Below, piece after piece: positions 1 to 33,760 of a stretch of 33,760 nucleotides of DNA (position 1 is its first letter; each line of letters starts with the position of its first letter). The notes under the pieces were generated by a model. That model was not told the DNA's origin. It saw nothing but the letters and a program-made list of their open reading frames with translations, and searched no databases. Location: positions 1 through 33,760 of IMG/VR virus record IMGVR_UViG_3300006077_000797; one strand, written 5' to 3'. The stretch is from a virus. Position numbers and translations under genes: made by a program.

Positions 1-363
1 TTAATCATCAAAAGCGACAACTTTCCAGTTCACCATCATCGAAACGCCATCTTGAGTATTACTAAAGTCATCATCATCATTGCCCATGACAGAAACATCA
101 ACATCATCAAGGGTTCGAACAGTCAAACCATCTTTTTCAAATTCATCTTTGATGGACTCACTAATTTTCATTGATAATTCAGTAATTAAGCTTCTATCGA
201 GTGATTTGAACTTAGCAATAACCATGTTTTCGACTGTTTTCGCCTTCCTTTTGCTGCGTTTTGGGTTAATGAATTTATTAGCAGTCATCATTGTTTCAAT
301 TTTAGTGTGAACATTGCTGATTAGTAGTTCAATGAATCGTAATTGTTGTTTAGTGTTAGTCAT
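1..363 (-). CDS. Hypothetical protein, only large leftward gene
   Basis: This 120-residue protein is not recognised. Residues about 33-42 (NPKRSKRKAK) are strongly basic, and the C-terminal third is acidic with a run of four Asp. The middle (about 45-80) is predicted helical. No helix-turn-helix or membrane segment is obvious. The ATG is preceded at about 10 nt by CTGGAG (complement of 374-379), and an ATAAATAA promoter-like motif lies on the same strand at 400-407. As the one gene facing the integrase side, it could be a lysogeny or DNA-binding regulator, but that is only inferred from position and basic charge. Confidence 0.7.
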   Translation of the reverse strand: MTNTKQQLRFIELLISNVHTKIETMMTANKFINPKRSKRKAKTVENMVIAKFKSLDRSLITELSMKISESIKDEFEKDGLTVRTLDDVDVSVMGNDDDDFSNTQDGVSMMVNWKVVAFDD

Positions 364-383
364 TTCGTGTAATCTCCAGTCGT

Positions 384-467
384 TTAAGTAGTAACAATCT
401 TATTTATGGAATTACCGCAAACTTTTGAAACGTGTTTTGATTCTGAGTGATAAATACTAACGTTCAT
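384..467 (-). CDS. Possible 27-residue peptide ORF upstream of the leftward gene
   Basis: The ORF has an ATG at 467-465 preceded by an excellent Shine-Dalgarno, AAAAGGAG (complement of 473-480), at 5-nt spacing, and ends at 384, 20 nt before the next leftward gene starts. The peptide (begins MNVSIYHSE) has no recognised feature. The promoter-like motif at 400-407 lies inside it, so it would need transcription from further upstream. It may be a real leader peptide or a chance ORF with a fortuitous SD. Confidence 0.35.
   Translation of the reverse strand: MNVSIYHSESKHVSKVCGNSINKIVTT
400..407 (-). promoter_or_regulatory. Phage promoter-like motif ATAAATAA (leftward)
   Basis: On the minus strand the sequence reads TCCATAAATAAGATT, nearly the same as the rightward copy at 825-832 in front of the helicase. 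It lies 37 nt upstream of the start codon of the leftward gene. Confidence 0.5.
450..457 (+). promoter_or_regulatory. Phage promoter-like motif ATAAATAC
   Basis: An intergenic copy of the shared motif. It is followed immediately by a stem-loop (457-491) and an intrinsic terminator (491-529), with no ORF between. Confidence 0.5.
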
Positions 468-529
468 TTAATCTCCTTTTGAACGGTTTAGCCCACGTTG
501 ATTCCATATTTTCAAACGTGGGCTTTTTT
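457..529 (+). ncRNA. Candidate ~70-nt structured small RNA
   Basis: This unit is framed by the promoter-like motif at 450-457 and the terminator ending at 529. The 5' part folds as CTAACGTTCA (457-466) against TGAACGGTTTAG (480-491) with two bulges. Its loop exposes CTCCTTTT (473-480), complementary to Shine-Dalgarno sequences and, being on the opposite strand, exactly antisense to the SD of the leftward ORF 384-467. The 3' part is the terminator hairpin. It could instead be only a leader fragment. Confidence 0.35.
491..529 (+). terminator. Intrinsic terminator
   Basis: A perfect 9-bp stem, GCCCACGTT (491-499) with AACGTGGGC (515-523), is followed by six T. No T-run follows in the leftward direction, so it acts rightward. 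Confidence 0.75.
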
Positions 530-548
530 GTGCGCAAAACGAAACAAC

Positions 549-578
549 TAGACAAATAATGCACTTTTATGTTAGAAT
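549..578 (+). promoter_or_regulatory. Candidate host sigma70 promoter
   Basis: TAGACA at 549-554 and TAGAAT at 573-578 are separated by 18 bp. T7-like phages need host RNA polymerase for their first transcripts, and this lies upstream of the helicase/RNAP region. A terminator at 659-687 would attenuate it. Confidence 0.35.
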
Positions 579-658
579 GCCTGTCCAGTTTGAGTTCCAA
601 GCTGCTCATCACGCACACGAAACATCACCCCCATCATCAAAAAGCAAACGTAAAAAAA

Positions 659-687
659 CCCTGATTCAAGTTAAATCAAGGCTTTTT
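659..687. terminator. Bidirectional terminator / attenuator
   Basis: TGATT (662-666) pairs with AATCA (674-678), extended by CC/GG across one bulged A, with a 7-nt loop. It is followed by five T rightward (683-687), and by a run of T on the other strand (A652-658), so it can work in both directions. Confidence 0.55.
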
Positions 688-761
688 ATGCATTCTTTTT
701 TTCAATAACCACAAAAAAAACCGAAATACATTTCTCTCAAACAAATATTTCTATTTTTTTT

Positions 762-769
762 GTATTTAT
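762..769 (-). promoter_or_regulatory. Phage promoter-like motif ATAAATAC (leftward)
   Basis: On the minus strand this reads TATAAATACA. The motif forms the 5' arm of a potential stem, AAATACA (767-761) with TGTATTT (730-724). Leftward RNA would meet the bidirectional terminator near 660. Confidence 0.4.
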
Positions 770-824
770 ATCGCGATGTTTCCATTAAAGCCGACAAAAA
801 ACCTCAACTTTTTGCCGCCAATCC

Positions 825-832
825 ATAAATAA
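825..832 (+). promoter_or_regulatory. Phage promoter-like motif ATAAATAA
   Basis: It lies 80 nt upstream of the helicase start. It is followed by the hairpin at 843-895. Confidence 0.5.
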
Positions 833-842
833 GATTTTTAAA

Positions 843-895
843 GACACAAAAAAGCCACCACCAAGGACTGAATCTTGATGATGGCGTGTCATTTT
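843..895 (+). promoter_or_regulatory. Hairpin in helicase leader
   Basis: GACAC (843-847) pairs with GTGTC (886-890). Inside, a 12-bp imperfect stem (854-865 with 874-885, two C-A mismatches) closes an 8-nt loop. TTTTT follows at 892-896, so it resembles an attenuator between promoter and gene; an RNase III site is the alternative. Confidence 0.45.
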
Positions 896-911
896 TACTA
901 TTGGAAGACAA

Positions 912-2900
912 ATGAACAATTCTATTTATACCGACAAATTATTCCTGCACTTCAGCAAGAGCATGAACCATCATCAAACACTTGAAGAGTCTATCGAGTT
1001 CTTTAAGTCCAAAGGTCTTGGCGCAACATTACAGCACACACAGCCACTACACAAAGAAGGTGACCGACATTGTGCCATCATCAATATTGGTGAATTTGTT
1101 GACTGCCCTATCCGATATGCAGAACTAGTACAGTGCATCATCAAAGCCCACCCTCAACTTCATGCTATCAACAAGAAAAGCATCATTTACTCACCACCTA
1201 CCGAATGCATTGGTGAGCAATTCATCGTGGACGGAATATCATTGAACAAATCATTAATATTCAAAACACAAAACAGCTTACCGATGACAACACGTATAGC
1301 TCAACACAGCAAAACCAACAAGAATCTACACATCACTGAAGAAACCGATGAATTATTTGCTTACTCAGTCACTAACCAGCACGAGAAGTTATTCCCAGCA
1401 GGACGACATGGTGATGGTTACCTTTTTCACAGAAACGGTGCTGATGATAAAGCCAATTTGTTCGCATTGAGTGATATGAACTGCATTCTTGATGATGAAA
1501 GACATGTTTTTTACTCGTTAATGTACAGTTCTAATGATTTTGCTGAAGCTAATCAGGATATCAAACTTAGTACCCACAAAAACCTACACCAATGTCTTGC
1601 TTGGGAAGAATCAGCAACATCTTGTGCAGCATTTATAGAGCCATGCGGTAGCGGAAAGTCAAAAACCTTCAAGAAGCTTGCAAAATTAACAACAAACGGA
1701 ACGCACCGCATCTTCACCGAATCATTACGAACCGCACGAACTGAGTTTGTTAATGAAATCGGCAGAGAAAACATTATTGAAATTTTTGGTAATGAAGAAA
1801 TCGCAGTAAAATTCGCAAACCGTAAACACAAAGATAAAATTGAATTAGCATTTATTGGTTACTACGAAGATGAAGAAGCACCTTCGGTATCATTTAAGAA
1901 ATTCGTTACCAAGGAGTTAAGCTTCGTTAGCAATGAAGAACGTGAAGCCATGATTGAATTCCATAAAGTGAATAGCGACAACATGAAACGTCGAGATTTA
2001 CCACTATGCATGACTCATGACAAGCTTGAGCTAACCATCAGTAAGTGTGGTGAGAAGTACAACCCATTCAGCAAGTCAATTATCTACTCCGACGAATATA
2101 GAACCGGAACATTAGCCGACTTACCCAACCAGAAGCACAAACCAGCAATATTACGTGACCTAAAGCGGTGCTATGCCAGTGCTGAATCAATTGCACTAAT
2201 GGAGATAAAAGCATGGATTGATGATGTATGCATTATCGGATGCGGTGTTCGTAAGCAATATGATGAAGGACTTCATGTGATGCGCATTCCTTCAACACGA
2301 GCAGGTGAAGTACGTGATGAATTGGTTAGTCATGTGAAACAAGTACCTGAATTCAAGCTGGTAGTAGGTAATGGATGCGAAGCAGACATGAACTTCACCA
2401 CAATCAAAGGAAGCAATGAATACATTGATGATGACATATGCACGATAGCTAGCTACCCGAAGAAATCACAGACCTATGAAGCAATGCTATGTCTTCGTAA
2501 CGATTCCTTTGAAGAAGTGGAAAATTTGCTCGTGATGGCTAACGTAACCCAGTCACTAGGTAGAAACATGGGCTTTAGGAATAAATCAGGTACAAATAAG
2601 CACTTATTGATTATACCTGACCACTTACACATAGACATGGAGTTCGTGACCAAGCACGTCTATATGACCGATGACTTAACTCATGTAACCAACAAAATGT
2701 ACAACTCGACCAATAACGCATCACTTCACACGTACCTGTCCAATATGACTGAAGGCGAAGCAATATCAACCCAGTCGATAATTGATGAATTAATGTTAAC
2801 ATCTGATGAGAAGTCAGTGAACAAGCAAGCCAAGCTACTGGGTTTATCGGTTACGCGCAAACGGGTAAACGGAAAGCAAATCCGACACATAACCCGATAA
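912..2900 (+). CDS. SF2-like helicase, putative replication initiator
   Basis: This 662-residue protein carries helicase motifs. A Walker A motif (EPCGSGKS) is at residues 243-250. A DE-type Walker B (YSDEY) has D394-E395. A motif VI-like QSLGRNMGFR spans 547-556. Residues 1-240 match nothing I recognise and could bind DNA or carry a priming activity. The C-terminal ~40 residues are basic. The start follows GGAAG with usual spacing. It occupies the early replication zone where T7 would have primase-helicase and DNA polymerase, neither of which is seen. It resembles plasmid or viral origin-binding helicases in general plan, but the exact family is uncertain. Confidence 0.65.
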   Translation: MNNSIYTDKLFLHFSKSMNHHQTLEESIEFFKSKGLGATLQHTQPLHKEGDRHCAIINIGEFVDCPIRYAELVQCIIKAHPQLHAINKKSIIYSPPTECIGEQFIVDGISLNKSLIFKTQNSLPMTTRIAQHSKTNKNLHITEETDELFAYSVTNQHEKLFPAGRHGDGYLFHRNGADDKANLFALSDMNCILDDERHVFYSLMYSSNDFAEANQDIKLSTHKNLHQCLAWEESATSCAAFIEPCGSGKSKTFKKLAKLTTNGTHRIFTESLRTARTEFVNEIGRENIIEIFGNEEIAVKFANRKHKDKIELAFIGYYEDEEAPSVSFKKFVTKELSFVSNEEREAMIEFHKVNSDNMKRRDLPLCMTHDKLELTISKCGEKYNPFSKSIIYSDEYRTGTLADLPNQKHKPAILRDLKRCYASAESIALMEIKAWIDDVCIIGCGVRKQYDEGLHVMRIPSTRAGEVRDELVSHVKQVPEFKLVVGNGCEADMNFTTIKGSNEYIDDDICTIASYPKKSQTYEAMLCLRNDSFEEVENLLVMANVTQSLGRNMGFRNKSGTNKHLLIIPDHLHIDMEFVTKHVYMTDDLTHVTNKMYNSTNNASLHTYLSNMTEGEAISTQSIIDELMLTSDEKSVNKQAKLLGLSVTRKRVNGKQIRHITR

Positions 2901-2990
2901 CATGAAGTGTGCCTATTACGTCGTTACCTATTATATAGAGCAAACACCTAATCGGCACATACGAATAAAGACACGGGCAAGCCCTTAGTC

Positions 2991-3056
2991 TTAATCACTT
3001 AATGAAGTCACTCAGTAGCAAGCTACTTCGCTCAATTCATTAAGGATTAACTTTTT
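2991..3056 (+). terminator. Long hairpin terminator after helicase
   Basis: TTAATC (2991-2996) pairs with GATTAA (3045-3050), and TTAATGAA (2999-3006) with TTCATTAA (3036-3043). An inner hairpin AGTAGC/GCTACT (3014-3019, 3022-3027) sits in the loop. CTTTTT follows at 3051-3056. Confidence 0.65.
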
Positions 3057-3220
3057 ACTTCACCTCCCTTTAATATATGAATCAACGACAAAACCAAAAA
3101 CAGCAACATTGATGGGTTTGATGAAGCAACTTGTTGCTGATATCAATTACTCATCACATGTTTAATCACGTAGTGATTACAACTAAAAACCGAAAAAGTT
3201 CAAAATAAAACCACATCCCT
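3057..3220 (+). other. Noncoding spacer with two further hairpins
   Basis: Between the helicase terminator and the HNH promoter motif there is no convincing ORF. AGCAAC-TT-GTTGCT (3125-3138) and TAATCAC-GTA-GTGATTA (3163-3179) are perfect inverted repeats. They may be protein-binding sites or RNA structure. Confidence 0.4.
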
Positions 3221-3228
3221 ATAAATAA
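3221..3228 (+). promoter_or_regulatory. Phage promoter-like motif ATAAATAA
   Basis: The sequence CCCTATAAATAAAGACA lies 54 nt upstream of the HNH gene and directly before the hairpin at 3231-3259. A weaker relative (CGAATAAAGACAC) is at 2962-2974. Confidence 0.5.
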
Positions 3229-3230
3229 AG

Positions 3231-3259
3231 ACATCAATCAATTTAGATTGGTGTTTTTT
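3231..3259 (+). terminator. Terminator-like hairpin directly after promoter motif
   Basis: ACATCAATC (3231-3239) pairs with GATTGGTGT (3246-3254), one G-T wobble, 6-nt loop, then T-run to 3259. It begins within a few bases of the promoter motif, so it may be a 5' stem-loop of the HNH mRNA, or an attenuator that keeps HNH low. Confidence 0.55.
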
Positions 3260-3281
3260 ACATTTTATTGGAGATTAACAC

Positions 3282-3854
3282 ATGAATAATTCACTACTAG
3301 CAAACATCAGCACATCATCAACAGATATCACTTGGAATTACAACCTTCAAGGAATCCAATCCAAGGTCGCAACAATCTATAGTGGTCGATTTGAACATAT
3401 CATCAACCGCTTACTCTCTATGAGCAAGCCAAACAAAAACGGATGCTGGGTTTGGGATGGCTCAACATCGAATTACGGAAAATACCCAAAAATCTCATTA
3501 GCACAAAAGGAGCGTAAAATGTTTGATGGAAATAATGCATCAATCGGAGCGCACAAACTATCACACATCCTTTTCAATGGAGCAATCAAAAAAGACAATC
3601 AAGTGCGCCATAAATGCGGATGTAGTACATGCATCAATCCTGCACACCTTGAGCAAGGAACAGCGAAACAGAATAGCTTCGACAAGTGGAGAGATGGAAC
3701 AATGACAAGCGCAAAACTAACAGAATCCGTTGTTCGCACAATCAAACACTTATCAATAACAACAACACAAGCCAATATTGCAGAGATGTGCGGCGTATCA
3801 CCATCAACAATCTCAGCCATCATCAACAACAAAACATGGAAGCACGTTCACTAA
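3282..3854 (+). CDS. HNH homing-type endonuclease with C-terminal HTH
   Basis: This 190-residue protein has an HNH core: H91 in AHKLSH, then RHKCGCSTCINPAHL at 109-123 with H110, N119 and H122, plus Cys at 112, 114 and 117 that may hold zinc. Residues about 163-188 form a helix-turn-helix (QANIAEMCGVSPSTISAII), as in phage homing endonucleases that add a DNA-recognition module. TGGAG lies 8 nt upstream of the ATG. It stands alone between its own promoter motif and terminator, so it looks like a free-standing selfish gene inserted before the RNA polymerase rather than an intron ORF. Confidence 0.85.
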   Translation: MNNSLLANISTSSTDITWNYNLQGIQSKVATIYSGRFEHIINRLLSMSKPNKNGCWVWDGSTSNYGKYPKISLAQKERKMFDGNNASIGAHKLSHILFNGAIKKDNQVRHKCGCSTCINPAHLEQGTAKQNSFDKWRDGTMTSAKLTESVVRTIKHLSITTTQANIAEMCGVSPSTISAIINNKTWKHVH

Positions 3855-3861
3855 CCCACAC

Positions 3862-3891
3862 AAAAAGGAACTCACATCGAGTTCCTTTTTT
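3862..3891. terminator. Bidirectional intrinsic terminator after HNH
   Basis: GGAACTC (3867-3873) and GAGTTCC (3879-3885) close a 5-nt loop, flanked by five A upstream and six T downstream. It separates HNH from the RNA polymerase gene, which starts 22 nt later. Confidence 0.8.
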
Positions 3892-3913
3892 ACACATACG
3901 GAATCCATAAACA

Positions 3914-6253
3914 TTGCACAACTCACAATTCGAACTTGAACAATCACTCATCACAGATGGAAAGAACAATTATCTTGCACGAGCCAGTAAAAACAACACC
4001 CAAACCCAGTTTAATATCATCAACAAATGCCACGAACATCTTTCTAGTGAAATCATCAAACAACTTCGCAATGCGGTTGACGGGAAAGCACTTTCATCAA
4101 ACATTACAGCCGATGGAATTAAACTACTTCTTGATATCACACCAGATATAGCCACAGCGTTAACCTTACGCACTGTATTGAACTCAATTGATAAACCCAT
4201 CCCGTTAACTCAACTCGCATTCAGTCTTGCTAACGAGCTTATTACGCAACACAAGTTCACGCACATCATCACAGAAAAAAGCATTAAACATCTCGACATG
4301 GATAATATGATTGAATTTCAATATGAACGTGATAATAAGTTAACAAAACGAGTTGATGAATTCATTGACCGCAAGCAATTGGGTTACACAAATCTCACTC
4401 AAACCGACAAATCTCGACTCGGACTGTTTTTGTTAAATGTATTAGAACAAATCGGAATCATCACCATCAAAACCGTGTTAATCGGCGCTAAGCGACATCA
4501 ATATCAAGTCAAACCATCATTACTACTAACGCAGTACATGAATGATTATCACGAGCACATGAGCAGCATTCACCCACTTCGGCAGCCCATGATTGAAAAG
4601 CCGAAAGACTGGGTGAGTCTTTACGACTCTGGTGGATATCACTGCATACAAAACAACTTCGTTCGCGGAGCCAATAAGACACAATTTGACGCACTTAAAC
4701 AAGCAAACCTTACCAATGTATTCAATGCAGTTAACAGGCTTCAGAGCGTCCGATGGCGCATCGACAAACCCATGCTTGAGCTAATCAACACCATCACCGT
4801 TAACTGTCCTGACATATGCGAATCCACGCGATTCATGGATGTTATTGAGATGCGCGAATATCCAAAGGAAGGTACTGAGCAAGAACAATCACAATGGAGA
4901 TTCGAAGCGTATCTTACTGCAACTAAAAATCAGTCTAACTTCAGCAAGAAAACGCGCTTTTTAAAAACACTATCCATCGTTAGCAAATACAAAGACTACG
5001 AAACCATTTATTTTCCGTATAATCTTGATAAACGTGGACGCAGCTACCCAATTCCGTCCATTTTTAACCCACAAAGTGATGATATTTCAAAGTCATTACT
5101 ACTATTAAAGCCGCAAGCAGTTACAGAAAATGGAGAATATTGGTTAAAAGTGAATATTGCCAATTTATTCGGCATGGATAAGCTTGACTTTGACGCGCGA
5201 ATTGCGTGGTTCGACAGACATCTCGATGAGATATTACAAGACCCACTAGATGGCTCAAGATTGTGGTGCAAAGCTGATAGTCCACTGTCATTTTTACAAG
5301 CAAGCTTGGATTACAAAAACTATCTTGAAACAGGGTTAAGCTCAGTCGTTGTTCGTGTTGATGCAACAAACAGTGCTATTCAACACATCGCTGCACTAAC
5401 TCGTGATGAAGAGTTAGCAAAATTCACAAACATGAGTAAATCAAACACATTTCGACATGACTTCTATCAAACAGTAGCAAGCATACTGCAAAGCAATGTT
5501 GATAATGATGATAGTGATGATGAAGCCGACAAGCGATTCATTCGCGATTGGCAAGCAAAGATATCAAGAAAACTCATCAAACCATCAGTAATGACAAGTC
5601 CGTTCAATGTTAGTCCTCGCGGAATCCAACGACAACTCATCGACTACGTAAAAACCCACACAACACCCACAAAAGCGTTTATCCATCACGACTCACGTAT
5701 AGTCATAGAATCGTGTTCATGGCTCCAAAAGAAGCTTACACGAACCCTTTCAAAATCCTTCCCTCAGCTAAATGGAATGCGCAAAATCCTTCGCGATAAA
5801 GCAAGGTTAATAGCAAGAACTGATGAGTCACCACAATGGCTTTTGCCGTCAGGTTTTTTATTCACGCAACACGATAACAAGTACGACTCAAAGCGCATTA
5901 TATTTCGCTATAACGAGAAAAAAGTATCTCTTCGCGTGAACGGAATTAATGACGAAGCACACATCGACGCAAACAAACAAGCAAACAGTGTTACAGCAAA
6001 TCTCATTCACAGTCTTGATGGATGTCATGTTCACATGGTCAGTAATGACGTTGACTTTGAAATAACAACTATTCACGACTCGATAGGATGTCACTGTAAT
6101 AACGTTGACACTTTACAGTTAAGTATTCGCAAGCAATTCGTAAAGCTTCATAGCGACTTCGATATCAATAGTATTTTTAGTGACATGGACGACATCGAAC
6201 TCGGTGCGTTTGATATTAACGAAGTGATGGTTAACCCGTATTTTTTCTCATGA
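3914..6253 (+). CDS. T7-type single-subunit RNA polymerase
   Basis: This 779-residue protein (T7 gp1 has 883) would transcribe phage genes from phage promoters. Motifs align with T7: FPYNLDKRGR-type segment before 400; motif A VDATNSAIQH with catalytic D483 (T7 D537); motif B with R552 and K556 (T7 R627, K631) in KPSVMTSPF; motif C IHDS with D722 (T7 D812); aromatic C-terminal end like the T7 FAFA foot. Two departures: F564 replaces T7 Y639, and motif A has Ala where T7 has G538 and G542. The start is TTG just after an in-frame stop (3908-3910), with no strong RBS, suggesting low expression. No later Met is near enough without losing N-terminal domain. Confidence 0.95.
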   Translation: MHNSQFELEQSLITDGKNNYLARASKNNTQTQFNIINKCHEHLSSEIIKQLRNAVDGKALSSNITADGIKLLLDITPDIATALTLRTVLNSIDKPIPLTQLAFSLANELITQHKFTHIITEKSIKHLDMDNMIEFQYERDNKLTKRVDEFIDRKQLGYTNLTQTDKSRLGLFLLNVLEQIGIITIKTVLIGAKRHQYQVKPSLLLTQYMNDYHEHMSSIHPLRQPMIEKPKDWVSLYDSGGYHCIQNNFVRGANKTQFDALKQANLTNVFNAVNRLQSVRWRIDKPMLELINTITVNCPDICESTRFMDVIEMREYPKEGTEQEQSQWRFEAYLTATKNQSNFSKKTRFLKTLSIVSKYKDYETIYFPYNLDKRGRSYPIPSIFNPQSDDISKSLLLLKPQAVTENGEYWLKVNIANLFGMDKLDFDARIAWFDRHLDEILQDPLDGSRLWCKADSPLSFLQASLDYKNYLETGLSSVVVRVDATNSAIQHIAALTRDEELAKFTNMSKSNTFRHDFYQTVASILQSNVDNDDSDDEADKRFIRDWQAKISRKLIKPSVMTSPFNVSPRGIQRQLIDYVKTHTTPTKAFIHHDSRIVIESCSWLQKKLTRTLSKSFPQLNGMRKILRDKARLIARTDESPQWLLPSGFLFTQHDNKYDSKRIIFRYNEKKVSLRVNGINDEAHIDANKQANSVTANLIHSLDGCHVHMVSNDVDFEITTIHDSIGCHCNNVDTLQLSIRKQFVKLHSDFDINSIFSDMDDIELGAFDINEVMVNPYFFS

Positions 6254-6260
6254 TAAATAG
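6253..6260 (+). promoter_or_regulatory. Phage promoter-like motif ATAAATAG
   Basis: It overlaps the RNA polymerase stop codon and lies 27 nt upstream of endonuclease I. It is the only G-ending copy. Confidence 0.4.
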
Positions 6261-6287
6261 CTTATATAACAAACTCATGAGTATGAA

Positions 6288-6656
6288 ATGTTGAAATACA
6301 GGTCTGGATTTGAAGAAACAATAGCCAAATCACTACACGACAAAGGTATTGATTTTGAATATGAAACGGTAAAGATTCCTTACGTTAGTTCACACAAGTA
6401 CACACCAGACCTCGTGTTTCGCAATGATGATGGCTCGGTTCGTCAAATAATTGAACTAAAAGGTCGATTTACATCCAGTGACCGAAGCAAACACAAGGCA
6501 ATCATCGCTCAGCATCCCGATATCAAAATCAAATTCGTATTCATGAATGCCAACGTCAAACTCAATAAAAATTCCAAAACCACTTACGGCGACTGGTGCG
6601 ACAAGCACGGCATCGAGTGGAGTCACAAAGTCATTCCTAGCGAATGGATTACATAA
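6288..6656 (+). CDS. T7 endonuclease I-like Holliday junction resolvase
   Basis: This 122-residue protein (T7 gp3 has 149) resolves branched DNA before packaging and degrades host DNA in T7. The active-site set is intact: E9 in RSGFE (T7 E20), D41 in YTPD (D55), E56 and K58 in ELKG (E65, K67). The C-terminal half keeps the T7 pattern SYGxxCxKHGI and IPSEWI. It lacks only the short T7 N-terminal arm and the basic C-terminal tail. It opens the T7-like late block behind a promoter-like motif. Confidence 0.95.
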   Translation: MLKYRSGFEETIAKSLHDKGIDFEYETVKIPYVSSHKYTPDLVFRNDDGSVRQIIELKGRFTSSDRSKHKAIIAQHPDIKIKFVFMNANVKLNKNSKTTYGDWCDKHGIEWSHKVIPSEWIT

Positions 6657-6669
6657 TCGGAGCACATAT

Positions 6670-6822
6670 ATGTCAAGTTTATTCACAGGATTAATCACTA
6701 AATTCTTAACGCAAAAATTTCTTACGAAAATCTTCATTTTACTTGCTGAATTCTTAATCAAGAAAACAGATAACAAGCTTGATGATGAACTAGTTAAAGC
6801 AATCAAGGAAGCACTTGAGTAA
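6670..6822 (+). CDS. Small amphipathic/hydrophobic protein, possible holin-like
   Basis: This 50-residue product starts at ATG 6670, preceded by CGGAG at 6657-6661. Residues 4-30 are rich in Leu, Ile and Phe and could form one membrane or amphipathic helix; the rest (KKTDNKLDDELVKAIKEALE) is a charged helix. Small proteins of this plan occur in many podoviruses. A holin role is an inference from hydrophobicity only. Its stop overlaps the next start (TAATG). Confidence 0.65.
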   Translation: MSSLFTGLITKFLTQKFLTKIFILLAEFLIKKTDNKLDDELVKAIKEALE

Positions 6823-6998
6823 TGGATGATTTTCCAACGATGAGTATCGAGTTGATAAAGCGACTTAATGTCATGTTTCCCGAATCCGTTCAAACATGGG
6901 AAACATCACCACGCGAAATAGACTTTCGCAACGGACAGCGTTCAGTAATTACGTTACTCAATTCAATCCTTGATGAAGCAAACGATAGGAATCACTAA
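6822..6998 (+). CDS. Small conserved-type podoviral protein
   Basis: A 58-residue ORF that starts in the TAATG overlap with the preceding gene, so it is probably translationally coupled. The segment EIDFRNGQRSVITLLNSI resembles short proteins seen beside podovirus structural genes. I recognise no function. Confidence 0.6.
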   Translation: MDDFPTMSIELIKRLNVMFPESVQTWETSPREIDFRNGQRSVITLLNSILDEANDRNH

Positions 6999-7000
6999 CT

Positions 7001-7180
7001 ATGTGTCCAAAACCAAAAACCCCCGAAATCAAAGACCCTAAAAAAGACGCGATTGAAATCTTTAAAAACCCTTACGACGATGAAAGTAATTCACGGTACA
7101 AATTACGCGGAATTAAAGGGTTGACGATTCAACGAAACAAGTCATCAAGCGGCTTAAATACTACTAACAAAAACGGATAA
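7001..7180 (+). CDS. T7 gp6.7-like small virion protein
   Basis: This 59-residue protein begins MCPKPKTPEIKD and has GIKGLTIQRNKSSSG near the end. T7 gp6.7 begins MCFSPKIKTPK and has GRKGLKVERDDS, and it also lies shortly upstream of the portal gene. In T7 the protein is a minor virion component ejected into the cell. TAGGA lies 10 nt upstream. The assignment rests on two short similarities plus position. Confidence 0.65.
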   Translation: MCPKPKTPEIKDPKKDAIEIFKNPYDDESNSRYKLRGIKGLTIQRNKSSSGLNTTNKNG

Positions 7181-7187
7181 GCACACT

Positions 7188-8801
7188 TTGAAGAAATTCC
7201 AATATACATCGAATTTTGCAAAATCAAGATGGGATGCACTTAGTATCAACATGGGTGACTTACTTGATAATTGCCGTAAATTCGCAGACATCACAATGCC
7301 GTTTATATTACCGCCTGATGACCAAACACAAGGGTATAGCGCAACTAAGCAGCCACTTAACAACATTACTGCTCGCGGAATTACTAATATATGTTCAAAA
7401 TTGTTGGTTGCGCTTTTACCACCGAATTCAGCATTCTTTAAATTAAATGTAGATGAGCAGACCCTGTTAAATATGGGCGCAAACCCTGATGAAATCGACA
7501 CGATGATGGCTGATATCAACTTAAATTTAAGTCAGATTGAATCGGAGGCCACACGCATTATTGAAAGCTCAACATTGCGCAAGCGATTCTTTGATGCATT
7601 GGTGCTGCTCGTGGTAACGGGTAACGCACTACTTCATGTTGACGTTAAAAACAATGCTAGTCGTACATTTTCGCTGTTAAATTATCGTGTAAACCGCGAC
7701 CACACGGGTGTCGTTCGTGAAATCATACTCAGTGAACAAGTTGAATACAGAAGTCTCGATGATGCAATTCAAAAGCAAATCACTGATGAAGCACCAAGCA
7801 ATAGCGGTGACGATAAATTCATTGAATTACTAACGTACATCTATCTTGAGGACGGTAACTATCATCAATTTCAAGAAATCAATGGCGTCAAAATCAACGG
7901 AACAGACGGAAAGTATCCGATTAACAAAAGTCCGTGGTTGGCAATAAGATTCTCTCAGCGCAATAACAGCGACTACGGAGTCGGATTAATTGAGCAATAT
8001 TACGGAAGTATTTCAGAGTTAGAAAATTATCACATCGCTAGTCGTGATTTTATCACTACAGTCAGTGACGTTAAATTCGGCATTAAAACTGGAAGCTCAT
8101 TAACTCCGCGTAAATTAGCAGCGTTAAAATCGGGAGAGGTCATCGGTAATTGCGATATGAATGACGTTACTGAATTAAAAATCACTCGACAATCTGAACT
8201 GCAAATCATCGAAAAGATGATGGGAACCTTGAAAGCTGAACTCGCACAAATATTCTTACTAACAAGTGGAAATATTCGCAACGCAGAGCGCGTAACAGCG
8301 GAAGAAATACGAATGATTGCGCAAGAGTTGGAGTCATCCCTTGGTGGGACGTATTCGCTACTATCAATAGAGTTACAAAGCCCAATTGTAAGTATCATTC
8401 TTTCGCAGACACCGAGCTTCGCACAGCTTAGTGATGAAGTTTCATTTCAGATAACAACAGGACTTGCAGCCCTTGGTAGAAGTCATGAGTTAGCAAAACT
8501 AGATGAATTCATATCACGTGTAGCTCAATCAAATCCAGAGTCGATAAACTGGGAAGAATACGGAAAACGCGTAGCGACATCACTCGGTATTGACCCTTCA
8601 AATCTATTGAAATCGCAACAACAATTACAACAAGAGCAGATGCAGCAACAAGGCGCACAGATGATGAGTAACATAGGCGCAAGCCCAGACACACAACGTC
8701 AAGCTCAGCAAATGGTAGATGCGTCAGGTGGTGATATCAATAAGATGATGGCTGACGCAGGTGTCACGCCAGAGATGTTACAGCAATTTTCACAGCAGTA
8801 A
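7188..8801 (+). CDS. Portal (head-tail connector), T7 gp8-like
   Basis: This 537-residue protein has almost the same length as T7 gp8 (536). Diagnostic stretches align: ARGITNICSKLLVALLPP, VVTGNALLHV, GTYSLLSIELQSPIV and ITTGLAALGRSHELAKLDE. The ring of 12 subunits forms the DNA gate and the dock for terminase and tail. A Gln-rich tail (residues about 475-500) precedes the C-terminus. The start is TTG with only a weak upstream GGATAAG; the first ATG would be 21 codons inside and would cut conserved sequence. Confidence 0.95.
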   Translation: MKKFQYTSNFAKSRWDALSINMGDLLDNCRKFADITMPFILPPDDQTQGYSATKQPLNNITARGITNICSKLLVALLPPNSAFFKLNVDEQTLLNMGANPDEIDTMMADINLNLSQIESEATRIIESSTLRKRFFDALVLLVVTGNALLHVDVKNNASRTFSLLNYRVNRDHTGVVREIILSEQVEYRSLDDAIQKQITDEAPSNSGDDKFIELLTYIYLEDGNYHQFQEINGVKINGTDGKYPINKSPWLAIRFSQRNNSDYGVGLIEQYYGSISELENYHIASRDFITTVSDVKFGIKTGSSLTPRKLAALKSGEVIGNCDMNDVTELKITRQSELQIIEKMMGTLKAELAQIFLLTSGNIRNAERVTAEEIRMIAQELESSLGGTYSLLSIELQSPIVSIILSQTPSFAQLSDEVSFQITTGLAALGRSHELAKLDEFISRVAQSNPESINWEEYGKRVATSLGIDPSNLLKSQQQLQQEQMQQQGAQMMSNIGASPDTQRQAQQMVDASGGDINKMMADAGVTPEMLQQFSQQ

Positions 8802-14700: not shown

Positions 14701-16749
14701 ATGCCAAAACTTCAAGGTAGCATCAAAAAACAACTCGGATTACCACAACTTGACACCAACCGAACTACGAGCATAAGCGTAACACCATTAAGTGCTCGCC
14801 GATTACCACAAAACCCAGCAGGACAACAAATCACGCAAGCACTCGGTATATTGAATCGCGGAGTTCAGCAACTCAACTACGCCGAGCGCAGGTCTGACGC
14901 AGTTGACAGGCAAAATCAAGCAAAACTCGACAGAGAAAACGAGGCACTCGAGTCAGCACAAGCACAAAACAAGGCTATTGATTTTTCGATTGAGCTAAAT
15001 GCAGCTTACGACGGCTCAACCGGTGCATTTGAAAACAAAGCAGATATGACACCCGACGAAGTATCGTCGGTATTCAAGCAAGAATTTACAAAATTCGGCA
15101 GTGCATACACGGATAAACATACACAAAAAGCAGTTAATCACGTTTACAATAAAGCGCGTCAAAACATTACTAGCACTCATCATGGATTCGTTATTGACGA
15201 GATGAGCAAACGTAAAGTTAACGAAGTCACTTCGCTTGGTATAAAAACCATTACCGCAAACCCTGATTCGTTTGATATGAACGCACTACAAGCACAACTG
15301 CGTGACTTGAAGTTACCTGCAAATTTGCGAGACAGTGTTGAATTCAGCATCATCACAACAGCAGCGCAAGAACTTGGTGACGCAAAGGTACTTGACAATT
15401 TGCGCGGAACCCGAAAGGACGGAAACCTTAAAATTGGCTCAACTCCGAAATACGCTAAAGCACTTAAAGAAGTCACTAACAGTATTAATCTAAGCAACAA
15501 ACGCAAGATTGCAGAAGATGAATACGACAAATACTCAACAATGCTTGAACGCGCACTACGAAGCAATATCACGAACACTGAAATACTTGATAGCAACATC
15601 ACTCCGCAACACAAATCAACACTACTTTCACATATCAGTAAGCGACAAAAACAATCTCGCGATATGACAGGCTACATTGAGTCGAAAAACGCTAATGGTG
15701 ATGCACCATTGGCGAACACAGCCGCAAACAGGAAAACTGCCGACATTGGGTATCAAGCAGACAAAAAATCACTTGACGCAAAAGGTATCGAACCAGAAAC
15801 GCGTGACGCAATGCTAATACAAACCTTTGAATCCACAGGTATTATCCCACCATCATTTACCGCACAAGTAAAAGCAGACCTATCATCAGCCGATGAAGAA
15901 AAACAGGGTTACGCACTAAAGCTTATCAATCTTACGTCGGAATCCCTTGATGATGGTGCAAGTAAGTTTACTAATGATGAGCTATTAGCGGCAACAATCT
16001 ATCGCTATAACGGAAACCCAGTTGAAGCAATTCGCATTGTTGAACAAGGAAAAAACATTGATGACAACCAACGAAAATCACTAAAGATAATATTCAAAAA
16101 AGACATCGATACTGACGCGATATTAACAGAACTCAATAATGATAAATTCGATAATAACGGATGGTTCGATTTTAGTGATTTAGAAGTAACAAGCAAACTA
16201 TCAAATAGCTTCAATAAAGTATTTGAACATTATTACATTGCCACTAACGGAAACGCTGAAGCTGCACAAGAGCTTGCTTACAATAAAATCTCAAAAGATT
16301 GGTCAGTAAGTGAGATTAACGGAATAAAACGAGTGCAATTTATGCCGCCAGAATCGGTTAATTTTGGCCAAAAGAATAACGATTGGTTGCAGCATGACTT
16401 TCAATTGTTTAGCGAGAAATATGGTGCTAAGCCAAGCGACTTTCAGTTAGTGACTGATGTAATCACGGTTAACTCAAAAAACAAAAAATCATGGTCAGTA
16501 ATGAAACGCGATAAGTACGGAATGCTAACCTTGCTACGCGATGATGATGGCAACATTGTTCGCTATAAGCCATCTATTAATTCATACATCAAACAGCTTG
16601 ACGAACTAAATAACAGTGACGAATTAAGTGCGCTAAAAGATGAAAACTGGAAGAAAGCACAGCGCATCCGCTCGATTTACCAACAGCGCAAAAAACTTGA
16701 AAAATCCCACCCTGAGCTATTCAACACTTACGGACAGCAAAAATACTAA
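14701..16749 (+). CDS. Internal core protein, T7 gp15-like
   Basis: A 682-residue largely alpha-helical protein (T7 gp15 has 747). The N-terminal GILNRGVQQLNYAERR helix and the helical repeats fit gp15, which with gp16 builds the inner core and the periplasmic tube for DNA entry. Sequence similarity in this family is low, so the call leans on position, length and composition. Confidence 0.85.
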   Translation: MPKLQGSIKKQLGLPQLDTNRTTSISVTPLSARRLPQNPAGQQITQALGILNRGVQQLNYAERRSDAVDRQNQAKLDRENEALESAQAQNKAIDFSIELNAAYDGSTGAFENKADMTPDEVSSVFKQEFTKFGSAYTDKHTQKAVNHVYNKARQNITSTHHGFVIDEMSKRKVNEVTSLGIKTITANPDSFDMNALQAQLRDLKLPANLRDSVEFSIITTAAQELGDAKVLDNLRGTRKDGNLKIGSTPKYAKALKEVTNSINLSNKRKIAEDEYDKYSTMLERALRSNITNTEILDSNITPQHKSTLLSHISKRQKQSRDMTGYIESKNANGDAPLANTAANRKTADIGYQADKKSLDAKGIEPETRDAMLIQTFESTGIIPPSFTAQVKADLSSADEEKQGYALKLINLTSESLDDGASKFTNDELLAATIYRYNGNPVEAIRIVEQGKNIDDNQRKSLKIIFKKDIDTDAILTELNNDKFDNNGWFDFSDLEVTSKLSNSFNKVFEHYYIATNGNAEAAQELAYNKISKDWSVSEINGIKRVQFMPPESVNFGQKNNDWLQHDFQLFSEKYGAKPSDFQLVTDVITVNSKNKKSWSVMKRDKYGMLTLLRDDDGNIVRYKPSINSYIKQLDELNNSDELSALKDENWKKAQRIRSIYQQRKKLEKSHPELFNTYGQQKY

Positions 16750-28676: not shown

Positions 28677-28919
28677 ATGAGTAAATCAAACAGAGCCAGT
28701 GAAAGCAAAATGTCACTGCTACACGAGCTATTAGCATCCAGATTAACTGAAAAGTTAAATGATAGCGATGTTGATGCCAGTGTACTTAACGCAGCATCAA
28801 AATTCCTTAAAGACAACAGTATATTAGCTCACCCGAATGACAATAATGGATTAAACGAACTGAGTTCCATATTAAGTTCGTTTGAAAATCAAGGGAGAAA
28901 AGGTGCCAGTAAACACTAG
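28677..28919 (+). CDS. terS: Terminase small subunit, T7 gp18-like
   Basis: An 80-residue protein (T7 gp18 has 89). It has the short TerS helical pattern LHELLASRLTEKLND and LNAASKFLKDNSI, and lies directly before TerL, overlapping it by 17 nt. It should recognise concatemer DNA and guide TerL to the packaging site. The ATG follows TAATAC 3 nt after the previous stop. Confidence 0.85.
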   Translation: MSKSNRASESKMSLLHELLASRLTEKLNDSDVDASVLNAASKFLKDNSILAHPNDNNGLNELSSILSSFENQGRKGASKH

Positions 28920-30591
28920 TAACTCCAATCTTGAAAAGAAGCTTAAATCTGATTTTCAATTCTTTCTTTCATGCCTTCATCATTATCTCAATCTCCCTGC
29001 ACCAACCCCGATTCAACTATCCATTTGTAACTACCTGCAAAATGGCGGCAAACGAATCATCATTGAAGCCTTTCGCGGTGTTGGTAAGAGTCATATAACC
29101 GCTGCATTCGCGTGTTGGTGCTTATATAGAGAGCCGCAAGTCAAGATATTAGTAATTAGTGCAACGCAAGGACGTGCTGATGCATTCTCACGTTTTGTTA
29201 AACGATTAATCGGTGAAATCCCGTTTCTTTCATTCCTTGCCCCACAATCACATCAACGAAATAGCAACATTGAATTTGATGTAGCACCTGCAAAGAATGA
29301 CCAATCACCATCAGTTAAATCAGCATCCATCACAGGACAAATCACAGGTAGTCGAGCAGATATTATTATCGGGGATGACCTAGAAATACCAAGAAACAGC
29401 GCGACAGAAACACAACGAGATAAGTTACTCACGTTAGTAGGTGAATTCAACGCAATTCTTAAACCCCATGATGATGCACGTATCATTTACCTTGGAACAC
29501 CGCAGACACAAAACAGTCTTTACAACAAGTTAGCAGAGCGTAACTACAACATCCGTATATGGACATCACGAATCCCCGTCAATATTAATGCATACAAGGG
29601 TAGATTAGCACCGTATATTCACGAACTCATTGAGCAAGGCGGTCAATCCAACACAACAACAGAGCCATCAAGGTTTAGCGATGAAGATTTACTTGAGCGT
29701 GAAGCAAGTTACGGACGTACAGGTTTTCAACTACAATTCCAATTAGATACATCATTAAGTGATGCACTTAAATATCCACTTAAACTGAATGACTTGATGG
29801 TTACCGACCTTGATGAGTCCGAAGCACCAATTAAGCTGATATGGGCATCACAATCACAGATTATCGAAGGATTACCAAACCTTGGCTTTGATGGTGATAG
29901 ATACGTTAAACCGATGAAGGTAAGCGATGTATGGTCACCCTATTCCAAGATTGTAATGTCAATTGATAACTCAGGCTCAGGTACAGACAAAACAGGTTAC
30001 TCAGTAATCGCAGTATTACATGGATTCTTATTCGTACTAGACGCAGGTGGAATCAAAGGTGGGTACGATACCAATACATTGACCGCACTTGCTAATATAG
30101 CTAAACGATGGAATGTTCACGAGTGTATTATCGAGCGAAACTTCGGTGATGGCATGTTCACAAGTCTTTTCAAACCAGTAATCCACAAGATTCATCAGTG
30201 TCACATTGACGAAGTTAGACATAGTGTTCAAAAAGAAAAACGTATCATTGACACATTAGAGCCAGTTATGAATCGTCATAAGTTAATATTCAATCGAAGC
30301 GTTATCGAAAAGGATTATCGAGACAACGAAGAAGATGTTAAACACTCATTGATGTATCAGTTAACGCATATCAGCAAAGATAGAGGAAGCTTACGTCATG
30401 ATGATGCATTAGACGCATTAGCTATAGCAGTTGCACACCATCAAGGTTTAATGGTTATCGACGAAGACATTGCAGAGGAATCATTCATATTAGAAAAACG
30501 CATGTCACAAATAGATGCATTCTTACGTGAACATGATGAAGGTGGAATGTTTAGAAGTGATAGTCACTGTATTGGTAGTCAATATCGGTAA
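28903..30591 (+). CDS. terL: Terminase large subunit, T7 gp19-like
   Basis: A 562-residue packaging motor (T7 gp19 has 586). ATPase: FRGVGKS at 57-63 in place of a classical Walker A, Walker B IIIGDD with D158-D159, followed by the coupling segment RIIYLGTPQ. Nuclease: D355 in SIDNSGSG, ERNFGDGMF, and HDDALDAL with D500, D501 and D504. Very close to T7 in SVKSASITGQITGSRADIII. I chose the GTG at 28903 because GGGAG lies 5 nt upstream; a TTG at 28882 is also in frame. It ends the late block. Confidence 0.96.
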   Translation: MPVNTSNSNLEKKLKSDFQFFLSCLHHYLNLPAPTPIQLSICNYLQNGGKRIIIEAFRGVGKSHITAAFACWCLYREPQVKILVISATQGRADAFSRFVKRLIGEIPFLSFLAPQSHQRNSNIEFDVAPAKNDQSPSVKSASITGQITGSRADIIIGDDLEIPRNSATETQRDKLLTLVGEFNAILKPHDDARIIYLGTPQTQNSLYNKLAERNYNIRIWTSRIPVNINAYKGRLAPYIHELIEQGGQSNTTTEPSRFSDEDLLEREASYGRTGFQLQFQLDTSLSDALKYPLKLNDLMVTDLDESEAPIKLIWASQSQIIEGLPNLGFDGDRYVKPMKVSDVWSPYSKIVMSIDNSGSGTDKTGYSVIAVLHGFLFVLDAGGIKGGYDTNTLTALANIAKRWNVHECIIERNFGDGMFTSLFKPVIHKIHQCHIDEVRHSVQKEKRIIDTLEPVMNRHKLIFNRSVIEKDYRDNEEDVKHSLMYQLTHISKDRGSLRHDDALDALAIAVAHHQGLMVIDEDIAEESFILEKRMSQIDAFLREHDEGGMFRSDSHCIGSQYR

Positions 30592-30624
30592 CGAGCTATA
30601 AGCAGTTAGAAATAGCGTAAAATC

Positions 30625-30738
30625 GTTAAAAGAACGATAGTGTACGGAGCACGAAGTGCGGAGCCTATGATGATACAGGCTGAATATAGTTAAAAGAACG
30701 ATAGTGTACGGAGCACGAAGTGCAGAGTCTATGATGAT
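30625..30738. repeat. Two 50-bp direct repeats, 64-bp period
   Basis: Copies at 30625-30674 and 30689-30738 both begin GTTAAAAGAACGATAG and end CTATGATGAT with about two differences. Each contains the hairpin GCACGAAGTGC. Confidence 0.85.
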
Positions 30739-31190: not shown

Positions 31191-31280
31191 TTACATATTA
31201 ATAAAGCTTCGCTCCGCACTTCGTGCTTCGCTCGCAATAATCACTACTTTTTGATAGTTTCAAAAATAATCACTATCTTT

Positions 31281-31592: not shown

Positions 31593-31669
31593 GAGAAGGT
31601 TTAAATCATCAACGGACACATTGACGTATGATAACAAATTTTAACTTTAATCAAACAGGAATACATAAC

Positions 31670-32167
31670 ATGGCTTCAATTACTTACTACGAATTATCAA
31701 ACTATAACAGCGGTTCACTAATAGCGAAAACATTTGAATTAGATGGCTTAACGTATGAAGAACACTTACAAGAGATTACTGATTGGATGGAAGAGTTAAC
31801 CGAAAAAACTGGTGAATTATGTGAAGAATGGATTGTTTGCGATTACGAAGACGTACCGAGCCGTTTTGTGGGTGAATGGTCTATTGATGCGGAGTTCTTT
31901 GATTACATGGAAGCATTAGAAGCAAGTTATTACGATGCTGAAGTGTTTGAAGCTGCTGCTGAATTGGGTATTGCTGCTGATAAAGTTGATGATGCATATT
32001 ACGGCACGTTTGATAGTGATGAAGAGATGGCTGAAGAGTATTGCGATTCAACTGGGATGTTGTCGGAAATACCTGAAAATTTACGTTGTTACTTTGACAT
32101 GGCTAGCTTCGGACGTGATTTAGCAATGGACTTTATTGAGTTCAACGGTCATTACTTCAATTGGTAA
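31670..32167 (+). CDS. ardA: Antirestriction protein ArdA
   Basis: A 165-residue, very acidic DNA mimic that blocks type I restriction-modification enzymes. Family marks: YYELSNYNSGSLIAKTFELDG at the N-terminus, EEWIVCDYEDVPSRFVGEW, and IPENLRCYFDMASFGRDLAMD near the end. I chose ATG 31670 (AGGA 9 nt upstream) over ATG 31628, since ArdA proteins begin at this point and are about 165-170 residues. It is the first gene of the early block, the role Ocr plays in T7. Its coding strand is G- and T-rich, unlike the virion genes. Confidence 0.93.
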   Translation: MASITYYELSNYNSGSLIAKTFELDGLTYEEHLQEITDWMEELTEKTGELCEEWIVCDYEDVPSRFVGEWSIDAEFFDYMEALEASYYDAEVFEAAAELGIAADKVDDAYYGTFDSDEEMAEEYCDSTGMLSEIPENLRCYFDMASFGRDLAMDFIEFNGHYFNW

Positions 32168-32513: not shown

Positions 32514-32957
32514 ATGAATTCAATCATCAATTATATAGCAAAACAATGGGGTTTTGCTCGTGTGACTCATCAAAGTAATACATCTAATAGAAGTGCAGCA
32601 CAAAACGCGTTAAATGGTGTAATGCATCACTTAGAAAATAACGGCTTGGAATTCTTCGAAGTGGTTCGGGTGTTACGTCTATATAAAAATGAGGTGTTCA
32701 CTGTTAAGCGTGAAGTTATAGGTAGGTGTCTTAATAAAGAACGTGCTCTTGAACTGATGAGAATTAAATGGTCAAAAGAAAGCGGTCGTGTTGGTTGTTA
32801 CGATGCATACAATGATGATGTGAATGGCGTTTATGAATGGTCACGGGTTGATAGTTTTAAAAATGTTAGTCGTGAATATAGCTTAGTTGTATTAAGGCGT
32901 GAACTTGATGTGTCGGGTTCATATTCAATGTTTAATGATGTGATAGGTGGTGAGTGA
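32514..32957 (+). CDS. Hypothetical early protein (147 residues)
   Basis: Starts 2 nt after the previous stop and overlaps the integrase region, so it is in the ardA-int operon. It contains a basic beta-rich middle (VVRVLRLYKNEVFTVKREVIG) and an N-terminal helix-rich part. I recognise no domain. Placement directly before int raises the possibility of an excision or DNA-binding accessory factor, unproven. Confidence 0.7.
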   Translation: MNSIINYIAKQWGFARVTHQSNTSNRSAAQNALNGVMHHLENNGLEFFEVVRVLRLYKNEVFTVKREVIGRCLNKERALELMRIKWSKESGRVGCYDAYNDDVNGVYEWSRVDSFKNVSREYSLVVLRRELDVSGSYSMFNDVIGGE

Positions 32958-32959
32958 TT

Positions 32960-33760
32960 ATGAGTTATTTTAAAAAAGAGTTTAACAAGTTTGATGAGAT
33001 GGTGTTAAGCGGTAAGAGTGAAGCTTATAGAACGCAATTTGTGAACTCATTCAATAGAAATGTGTTAAGTAAATTCGGTATGTTATCAGTGGAGAATATC
33101 ACGACAAGGGACGTTGTAAGTTTAATTGATGGCATTAGTAGCAATAGTGTAGCTAACAGGGTGTTAAGTGGTCTTGTGTCGTTTCTTGGATGGTGTTGTG
33201 GACGTGGTGAATGTATTACTAATGTTGCAATAGGTATTCCGCGTAGGACTGAAACTAGTCGTGAAGTGTTGATTGATGTTAAAGAGTTAAATGACGTGTG
33301 CATTGGTGTGGGTGTTGAAGTATCCGACATATTGAAATTGATGTTATTAACTGGATTGCGTCACGGGACTATTCGCAAGTTAACTGGTGTGAATGTATGC
33401 ACTGACAACTTGGTGATTGATAAAGCACTTGTTAAGAATCGTCGTGATGTTGTTGTGCCGATGTTACCTGAAGCGAAAATGATTATGATGAAGTATGAAA
33501 ATGGATTCAAAATAACTGGTGTGAAGTTAGCACAACAGATTAAGCGCACTGGTGTGAACTTTACTGCTCACGATATCCGTCATTTGATTGGAACTCGTTT
33601 GGGTTCGATGGGTGTTGAAAGTACATTGATTAGTAGGATACTCGGTCACCACATCAAAGGTGCTACCGAAATTTACAATCATCATCATTATTGTGAAGAA
33701 AAACGTGAAGCTTTGATGAAGTTACGTGATGTGTTCGTTGAAGATGGGATGGTGTTCTAG
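32960..33760 (+). CDS. int: Tyrosine recombinase (integrase)
   Basis: A compact 266-residue site-specific recombinase (lambda Int has 356). The catalytic set is complete: R134 in TGLRHG, H204 and R207 in HDIRH, H230 in LGHH and the nucleophile Y239 in EIYNHH. The N-terminal ~95 residues form a SAM-like core-binding domain; an arm-binding domain seems absent. ATG 32960 has GGTGAG 5 nt upstream; GTG 32954 is an alternative. It should integrate and excise this phage, with attP probably just 3' of the gene. Coding-strand composition is G/T-rich. Confidence 0.95.
   Translation: MSYFKKEFNKFDEMVLSGKSEAYRTQFVNSFNRNVLSKFGMLSVENITTRDVVSLIDGISSNSVANRVLSGLVSFLGWCCGRGECITNVAIGIPRRTETSREVLIDVKELNDVCIGVGVEVSDILKLMLLTGLRHGTIRKLTGVNVCTDNLVIDKALVKNRRDVVVPMLPEAKMIMMKYENGFKITGVKLAQQIKRTGVNFTAHDIRHLIGTRLGSMGVESTLISRILGHHIKGATEIYNHHHYCEEKREALMKLRDVFVEDGMVF

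Follow-up and report, generated by a model that had tools for sequence, protein, structure and literature searches.

Gene content and ends of the record

The window analysed here is the whole virus record IMGVR_UViG_3300006077_000797, 33,760 bases in length, with the following genes and features:

1..363, minus strand: 120-aa gene at the left record edge, no function assigned
364..911: AT-rich noncoding stretch with ATAAATA sites at 450 and 825 (plus strand) and at 401 and 763 (minus strand)
912..2900, plus strand: 662-aa SF2-helicase-like protein, by motif order
3282..3854, plus strand: HNH endonuclease with a C-terminal helix-turn-helix (HNH_3, 2.5e-6)
3914..6253, plus strand: single-subunit T7-like RNA polymerase (PF00940, 1.7e-66; PHROG 414, 2.8e-151)
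6288..6656, plus strand: endonuclease I of the T7 gp3 type (PF05367, 2e-40)
6657..7187, plus strand: small ORFs only; the site of gp4, gp5 and gp6 in relatives
7188..8801, plus strand: portal (head-tail connector), first gene of the T7-like virion block 7188-30591
28882..30591, plus strand: terminase large subunit (TerL), about 50% identical to T7-like phages
31628..32167, plus strand: ArdA-like anti-restriction protein
32954..33760, plus strand: tyrosine integrase, stopping at the final base of the record

The helicase-like protein, the HNH protein, the RNA polymerase (RNAP) and endonuclease I lie where the original prediction had placed them. Its statement that the virion set is otherwise complete also holds, as portal, scaffold, capsid, gp11, gp12/nozzle, gp13, gp14, a gp16-like protein, tail fibres, TerS and TerL were all identified; these virion and packaging genes are of T7 type and stand in T7 order. 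Like the single-subunit RNAP, they are features of T7-like phages, a group listed as Autographiviridae in the records consulted. A 682-aa orphan protein at 14701, in which polymerase motifs are absent, occupies the position of T7 gp15, and together with the 662-aa protein makes up the two large orphans remaining in the record. In the noncoding DNA between the terminase and ArdA genes, at 30619-30738 and 31211-31230, there are two direct repeats of 56 nt (93%), and the CGGAGCACGAAGTGCGGAGC core recurs there in inverted orientation.

Base 1 of the record is the end of the stop codon of the leftward gene, and the record closes with the final letter of the integrase stop codon. The record thus looks like a provirus excised at gene boundaries. 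No terminal or att-like repeat of at least 14 bases was found between its ends. The plasmid-like strategy that had been proposed for this phage was a guess: an integrase is present, no partition gene was found among the family matches in the record, and the linear record is therefore not classed as a phage-plasmid.

The motif ATAAATA occurs 10 times in noncoding DNA of the plus strand, where 1.1 occurrences would be expected (0 of 1000 shuffles); within genes it is under-represented. Nearly all sites are noncoding and most are on the gene strand:

450, 825, 3221, 6253, 9785, 11015, 23207, 28294, 31038, 31281, plus strand: ATAAATA sites
401, 763, 923, minus strand: ATAAATA sites

ATAAATA is likely the promoter that the phage-encoded RNA polymerase uses, and we take it to resemble the yeast mitochondrial ATATAAGTA. 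The stretch 364..911, which also holds a 37-nt imperfect inverted repeat (392-428/804-840), is a candidate divergent promoter region and possibly a replication origin. The three minus-strand sites face into the 120-aa leftward gene, which is therefore probably the phage's own. These leftward promoter-like sites suggest that phage DNA, with further genes, continues to the left of base 1.

Absence of the T7-type replication genes

Every gene-sized ORF was scanned with Pfam and/or PHROGs, and no polymerase, primase, single-stranded DNA-binding protein (SSB) or exonuclease was found among them; for DNA_pol_A (PF00476) there was no candidate anywhere in the 33,760-base record. Starting from LUZ100 proteins, we iterated profiles across the comparison loci for T7 gp2.5, gp3.5, gp4, gp5 and gp6, and none of these matched in the window. 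In control T7-type phages the same profiles score 1e-28 or better wherever the replication gene is present, with the exception of one gp4 (5e-7). All four replication genes were detected in LUZ100 and pVPan1, and a distant Sphingobium plasmid gave polymerase, exonuclease and that weak gp4. In P-SCSP1d, a published polymerase-less phage used as a control, the profiles detected gp4, exonuclease and SSB and gave no polymerase match. The absence of a T7-type polymerase, primase/helicase, SSB and exonuclease within the record is thus confirmed, and the scan and the iterated profiles both bear out the original prediction that gp5, gp4, gp2.5 and gp6 are missing.

The T7-order comparison stretches place gp4, polymerase and exonuclease between endonuclease I and portal in 30 of 30 cases; they are drawn from other phages and prophages and include a few overlapping pieces of one contig; a 31st stretch, L003, departs from this solely through its permuted record. 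The interval between the two genes is 5-10 kb in the comparison stretches versus 505 bases in the window. The only exceptions without the block at this site are the window and a second record, G433 (locus L216). DNA_pol_A is present in every T7-like relative of at least 31 kb in the TerL set, and chromosomal T7-like prophages have their polymerase no more than about 12 kb from the RNAP in the majority of the other bacterial genomes that were searched. Searches with endonuclease I returned no additional polymerase-less prophage in 369 Gammaproteobacteria, nor in 330 genomes of the family of an Enterovibrio (G060). The missing replication block is more than chance and is not the usual state of T7-order genomes.

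G433 is IMGVR_UViG_2657245668_000003, a record of 34,539 bases that is also cut at gene ends. Its RNAP is followed by endonuclease I, lysozyme and amidase, and then portal, and it gave no profile match for polymerase, gp4, exonuclease or SSB. Its TerL is nested, with support 0.99, in a Pseudomonas prophage clade in which endonuclease I and portal are 8 kb apart, with gp4, polymerase and exonuclease in between. As G433 is nested among block-bearing prophages, the block was lost in its ancestry; since the TerL of the window branches elsewhere, the window represents a separate loss, so that the loss occurred at least twice. Both records, each of about 34 kb, carry RNAP, endonuclease I and portal, with a helicase-like protein and an HNH protein left of the RNAP. 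G433 differs from the window in its TerL affiliation, in a helicase that belongs to PHROG 2467 and in an RNAP with the usual Y639; judged by these sequences, it is not a close relative.

The helicase-like protein of G433 has 498 aa and weak ResIII/DEAD matches (5e-4 and 0.013), and is distantly similar to jumbo-phage proteins and to a protein of the Methylobacterium plasmid pMNOD04. A final scan for its relatives returned G433 alone. The distant PHROG 2467 relative of M. nodulans pMNOD04 is an SF2 protein encoded at 33356-34759 of locus L328; ParA is present on this plasmid and no other replication protein is annotated, and the SF2 protein is possibly its unrecognised initiator. At 2323-4608 of locus L329, Agrobacterium phage Atu_ph07 encodes an SF2 protein of 762 aa that belongs to the G433 helicase family and whose C-terminal half appears primase-like by eye.

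The record might have been cut short, with the polymerase block situated in phage DNA beyond its left end. Both ends fall exactly at gene ends, the promoter-like sites at 401, 763 and 923 would drive a leftward gene, and relatives of phiKMV order have their polymerase upstream of the RNAP. Against this, endonuclease I stands directly behind the RNAP in the T7-order arrangement, where the block follows it in all 30 comparison stretches, and, in contrast to the phiKMV-order stretches, no exonuclease occurs in the 3.9 kb that precede the RNAP on the left. The same state arose independently in G433, and a T7-type polymerase is so strong a viral marker that its removal by a provirus caller would be improbable. 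We therefore consider a truncated record unlikely.

Loss of the block could also mark a defective prophage or a satellite that no longer replicates itself, as the smaller size of the record relative to its relatives might suggest. All other large genes are nevertheless open and complete and follow the T7 order, the candidate promoters are present, G433 is in the same state, and published T7-like phages without a polymerase are infectious (PMC9860041). This explanation is very improbable.

The RNA polymerase and the 662-aa protein

The RNAP is about 25% identical to its relatives and, at T7 positions, carries F at 639, A at 542 and N at 640. F639 occurs in 5 and A542 in 2 of about 117 readable RNAPs; the RNAPs with these changes form a natural set with altered ribose-discrimination residues. 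T7 RNAP with Y639F accepts both rNTPs and dNTPs (PMC8155940). The original prediction had speculated that a dNTP-tolerant RNAP primes or extends DNA, and in this reading the RNAP, with its Y639F/G542A-type changes, would itself make or extend the phage DNA. The substitutions are real and rare, but they are not in step with polymerase loss: the other F639 contigs (L301, L294, L319 and L287, of which L301 also has A542) carry DNA polymerase together with gp2.5, gp4 and gp6, and polymerase-less G433 and P-SCSP1d both have Y639. This co-occurrence led us to reject the RNAP as the DNA polymerase, an explanation that is scarcely credible. The RNAP has a genome-wide candidate promoter set of its own, and we read it as a transcribing enzyme whose RNA products might serve as replication primers.

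The 662-aa protein contains CGSGKS at residue 245, SDEY at 393, KGSN at 499 and QSLGR at 547, an arrangement that matches the succession of SF2 motifs I, II, V and VI. Motif V was assigned by eye, KGSN resembling the RGMN and HGIN of the G433 helicase family. The order GSGKS...DE...QxxGR was reproduced in 0 of 20,000 shuffles. No relative of the protein was found in Pfam, PHROG, NCBIfam, PDB, phages or plasmids, and nothing significant appeared in viral contigs, phages, plasmids, the fetched loci or about 390 bacterial genomes. Compared by profile with the helicase family of G433, it gave no significant similarity outside the Walker motif. Structures predicted from the single sequence, for the full-length protein and for residues 1-232, reached mean pLDDT values of 34 and 38; these poor models give hints, on which we place no weight, of a beta-alpha-beta-beta arrangement at the N-terminus and of a winged helix at the C-terminus. 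On its motifs, the protein is a candidate SF2-like helicase, and its position ahead of the RNAP and the parallel in G433 point, together with these motifs, to a putative role as replication initiator.

A divergent primase or polymerase domain might instead be hidden in the 662-aa protein or in a different orphan, for example the 682-aa one at 14701. Residues 1-232 of the former match no family, and a jumbo-phage protein distantly related to the G433 family has a C-terminal extension that appears primase-like by eye. A replicative polymerase, however, needs more than 232 residues, and the 682-aa protein has the T7 gp15 position and no polymerase motifs. A hidden domain of this kind is improbable.

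Candidate host-dependent replication and known systems

The window is probably a temperate T7 relative that has lost its replication block and in which the 662-aa SF2-like protein starts replication by host enzymes. In such a lineage, the gp2.5 SSB, gp4 primase/helicase, gp5 DNA polymerase and gp6 exonuclease would have been shed while RNAP and endonuclease I were kept. The 662-aa protein would bind and open an origin, perhaps in the AT-rich stretch 364-911, and host helicase, primase, SSB and DNA polymerase would then copy the phage genome. At the T7 origin, RNAP transcripts act as primers, and transcripts of the phage RNAP from nearby promoters may serve likewise. Endonuclease I would resolve branched DNA ahead of packaging. 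As an inferred mechanism, the host-polymerase replication through a helicase-like initiator that the original prediction had put forward fits all of the evidence. It is strengthened by G433, a separate lineage that shows the same loss and has, at the corresponding position, an SF2 protein backed by profile matches.

The MPP-C cyanophages of Cai and colleagues show that a DNA polymerase gene is dispensable for the growth of T7-like phages: they are infectious and T7-like, lack this gene and include one with an integrase. Their replication was proposed to use Pol I or Pol III of the host, or else a polymerase that had escaped recognition (PMC9860041). The MPP-C phages P-SCSP1 and P-SCSP2 share with the window a T7-like RNAP and virion, a small genome and the missing polymerase, and, in addition, P-SCSP1 shares endonuclease I and P-SCSP2 the integrase (PMC9860041). 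They differ in that SSB, primase/helicase and exonuclease are kept between RNAP and portal, and an upstream SF2-like protein was not reported for them. The window has the MPP-C trait of no polymerase between endonuclease I and portal and lacks the second trait, retention of primase/helicase and exonuclease. Since MPP-C phages keep these genes and the SSB, the window is a more extreme variant with the whole block gone. Polymerase-less T7-like phages are thus already published.

The T7 replisome is the textbook example of a self-contained replication machine, and the T7 DNA polymerase often serves as the marker gene for T7-like phages. As a broader and more tentative proposal, T7-type phages may have repeatedly dropped the whole replisome and given rise to a class of temperate T7 relatives, relying on unrelated SF2-helicase initiators, priming by RNAP and a Rep-like opening of the origin for the host replicase. 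If true, the loss of a whole replisome, rather than of the polymerase alone as in MPP-C phages, by two or more unrelated temperate lineages would mean that host replication is enough to sustain the virion and transcription modules of T7. It would also offer a natural system for the minimal DNA-copying needs of a T7-like phage. Marker-based surveys would overlook such phages.

Among temperate relatives, LUZ100 shares the integrase with the window (PMC10134795). LUZ100 and the Pseudomonas prophages G057 and G440 also have a T7-like RNAP, endonuclease I and the same virion order, but unlike the window they carry the full gp2.5-gp4-gp5-gp6 block (PMC10134795). The Vibrio panuliri plasmid pVPan1 (L002) resembles the window in its T7-like TerL (51% to the window), RNAP, portal and recombinase, and lives as a plasmid; it differs in having a DNA polymerase, a DnaB-like helicase and an exonuclease. 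With ParM and a DndB-annotated protein beside its DNA polymerase and recombinase, pVPan1 is a 48-kb phage-plasmid of T7 type.
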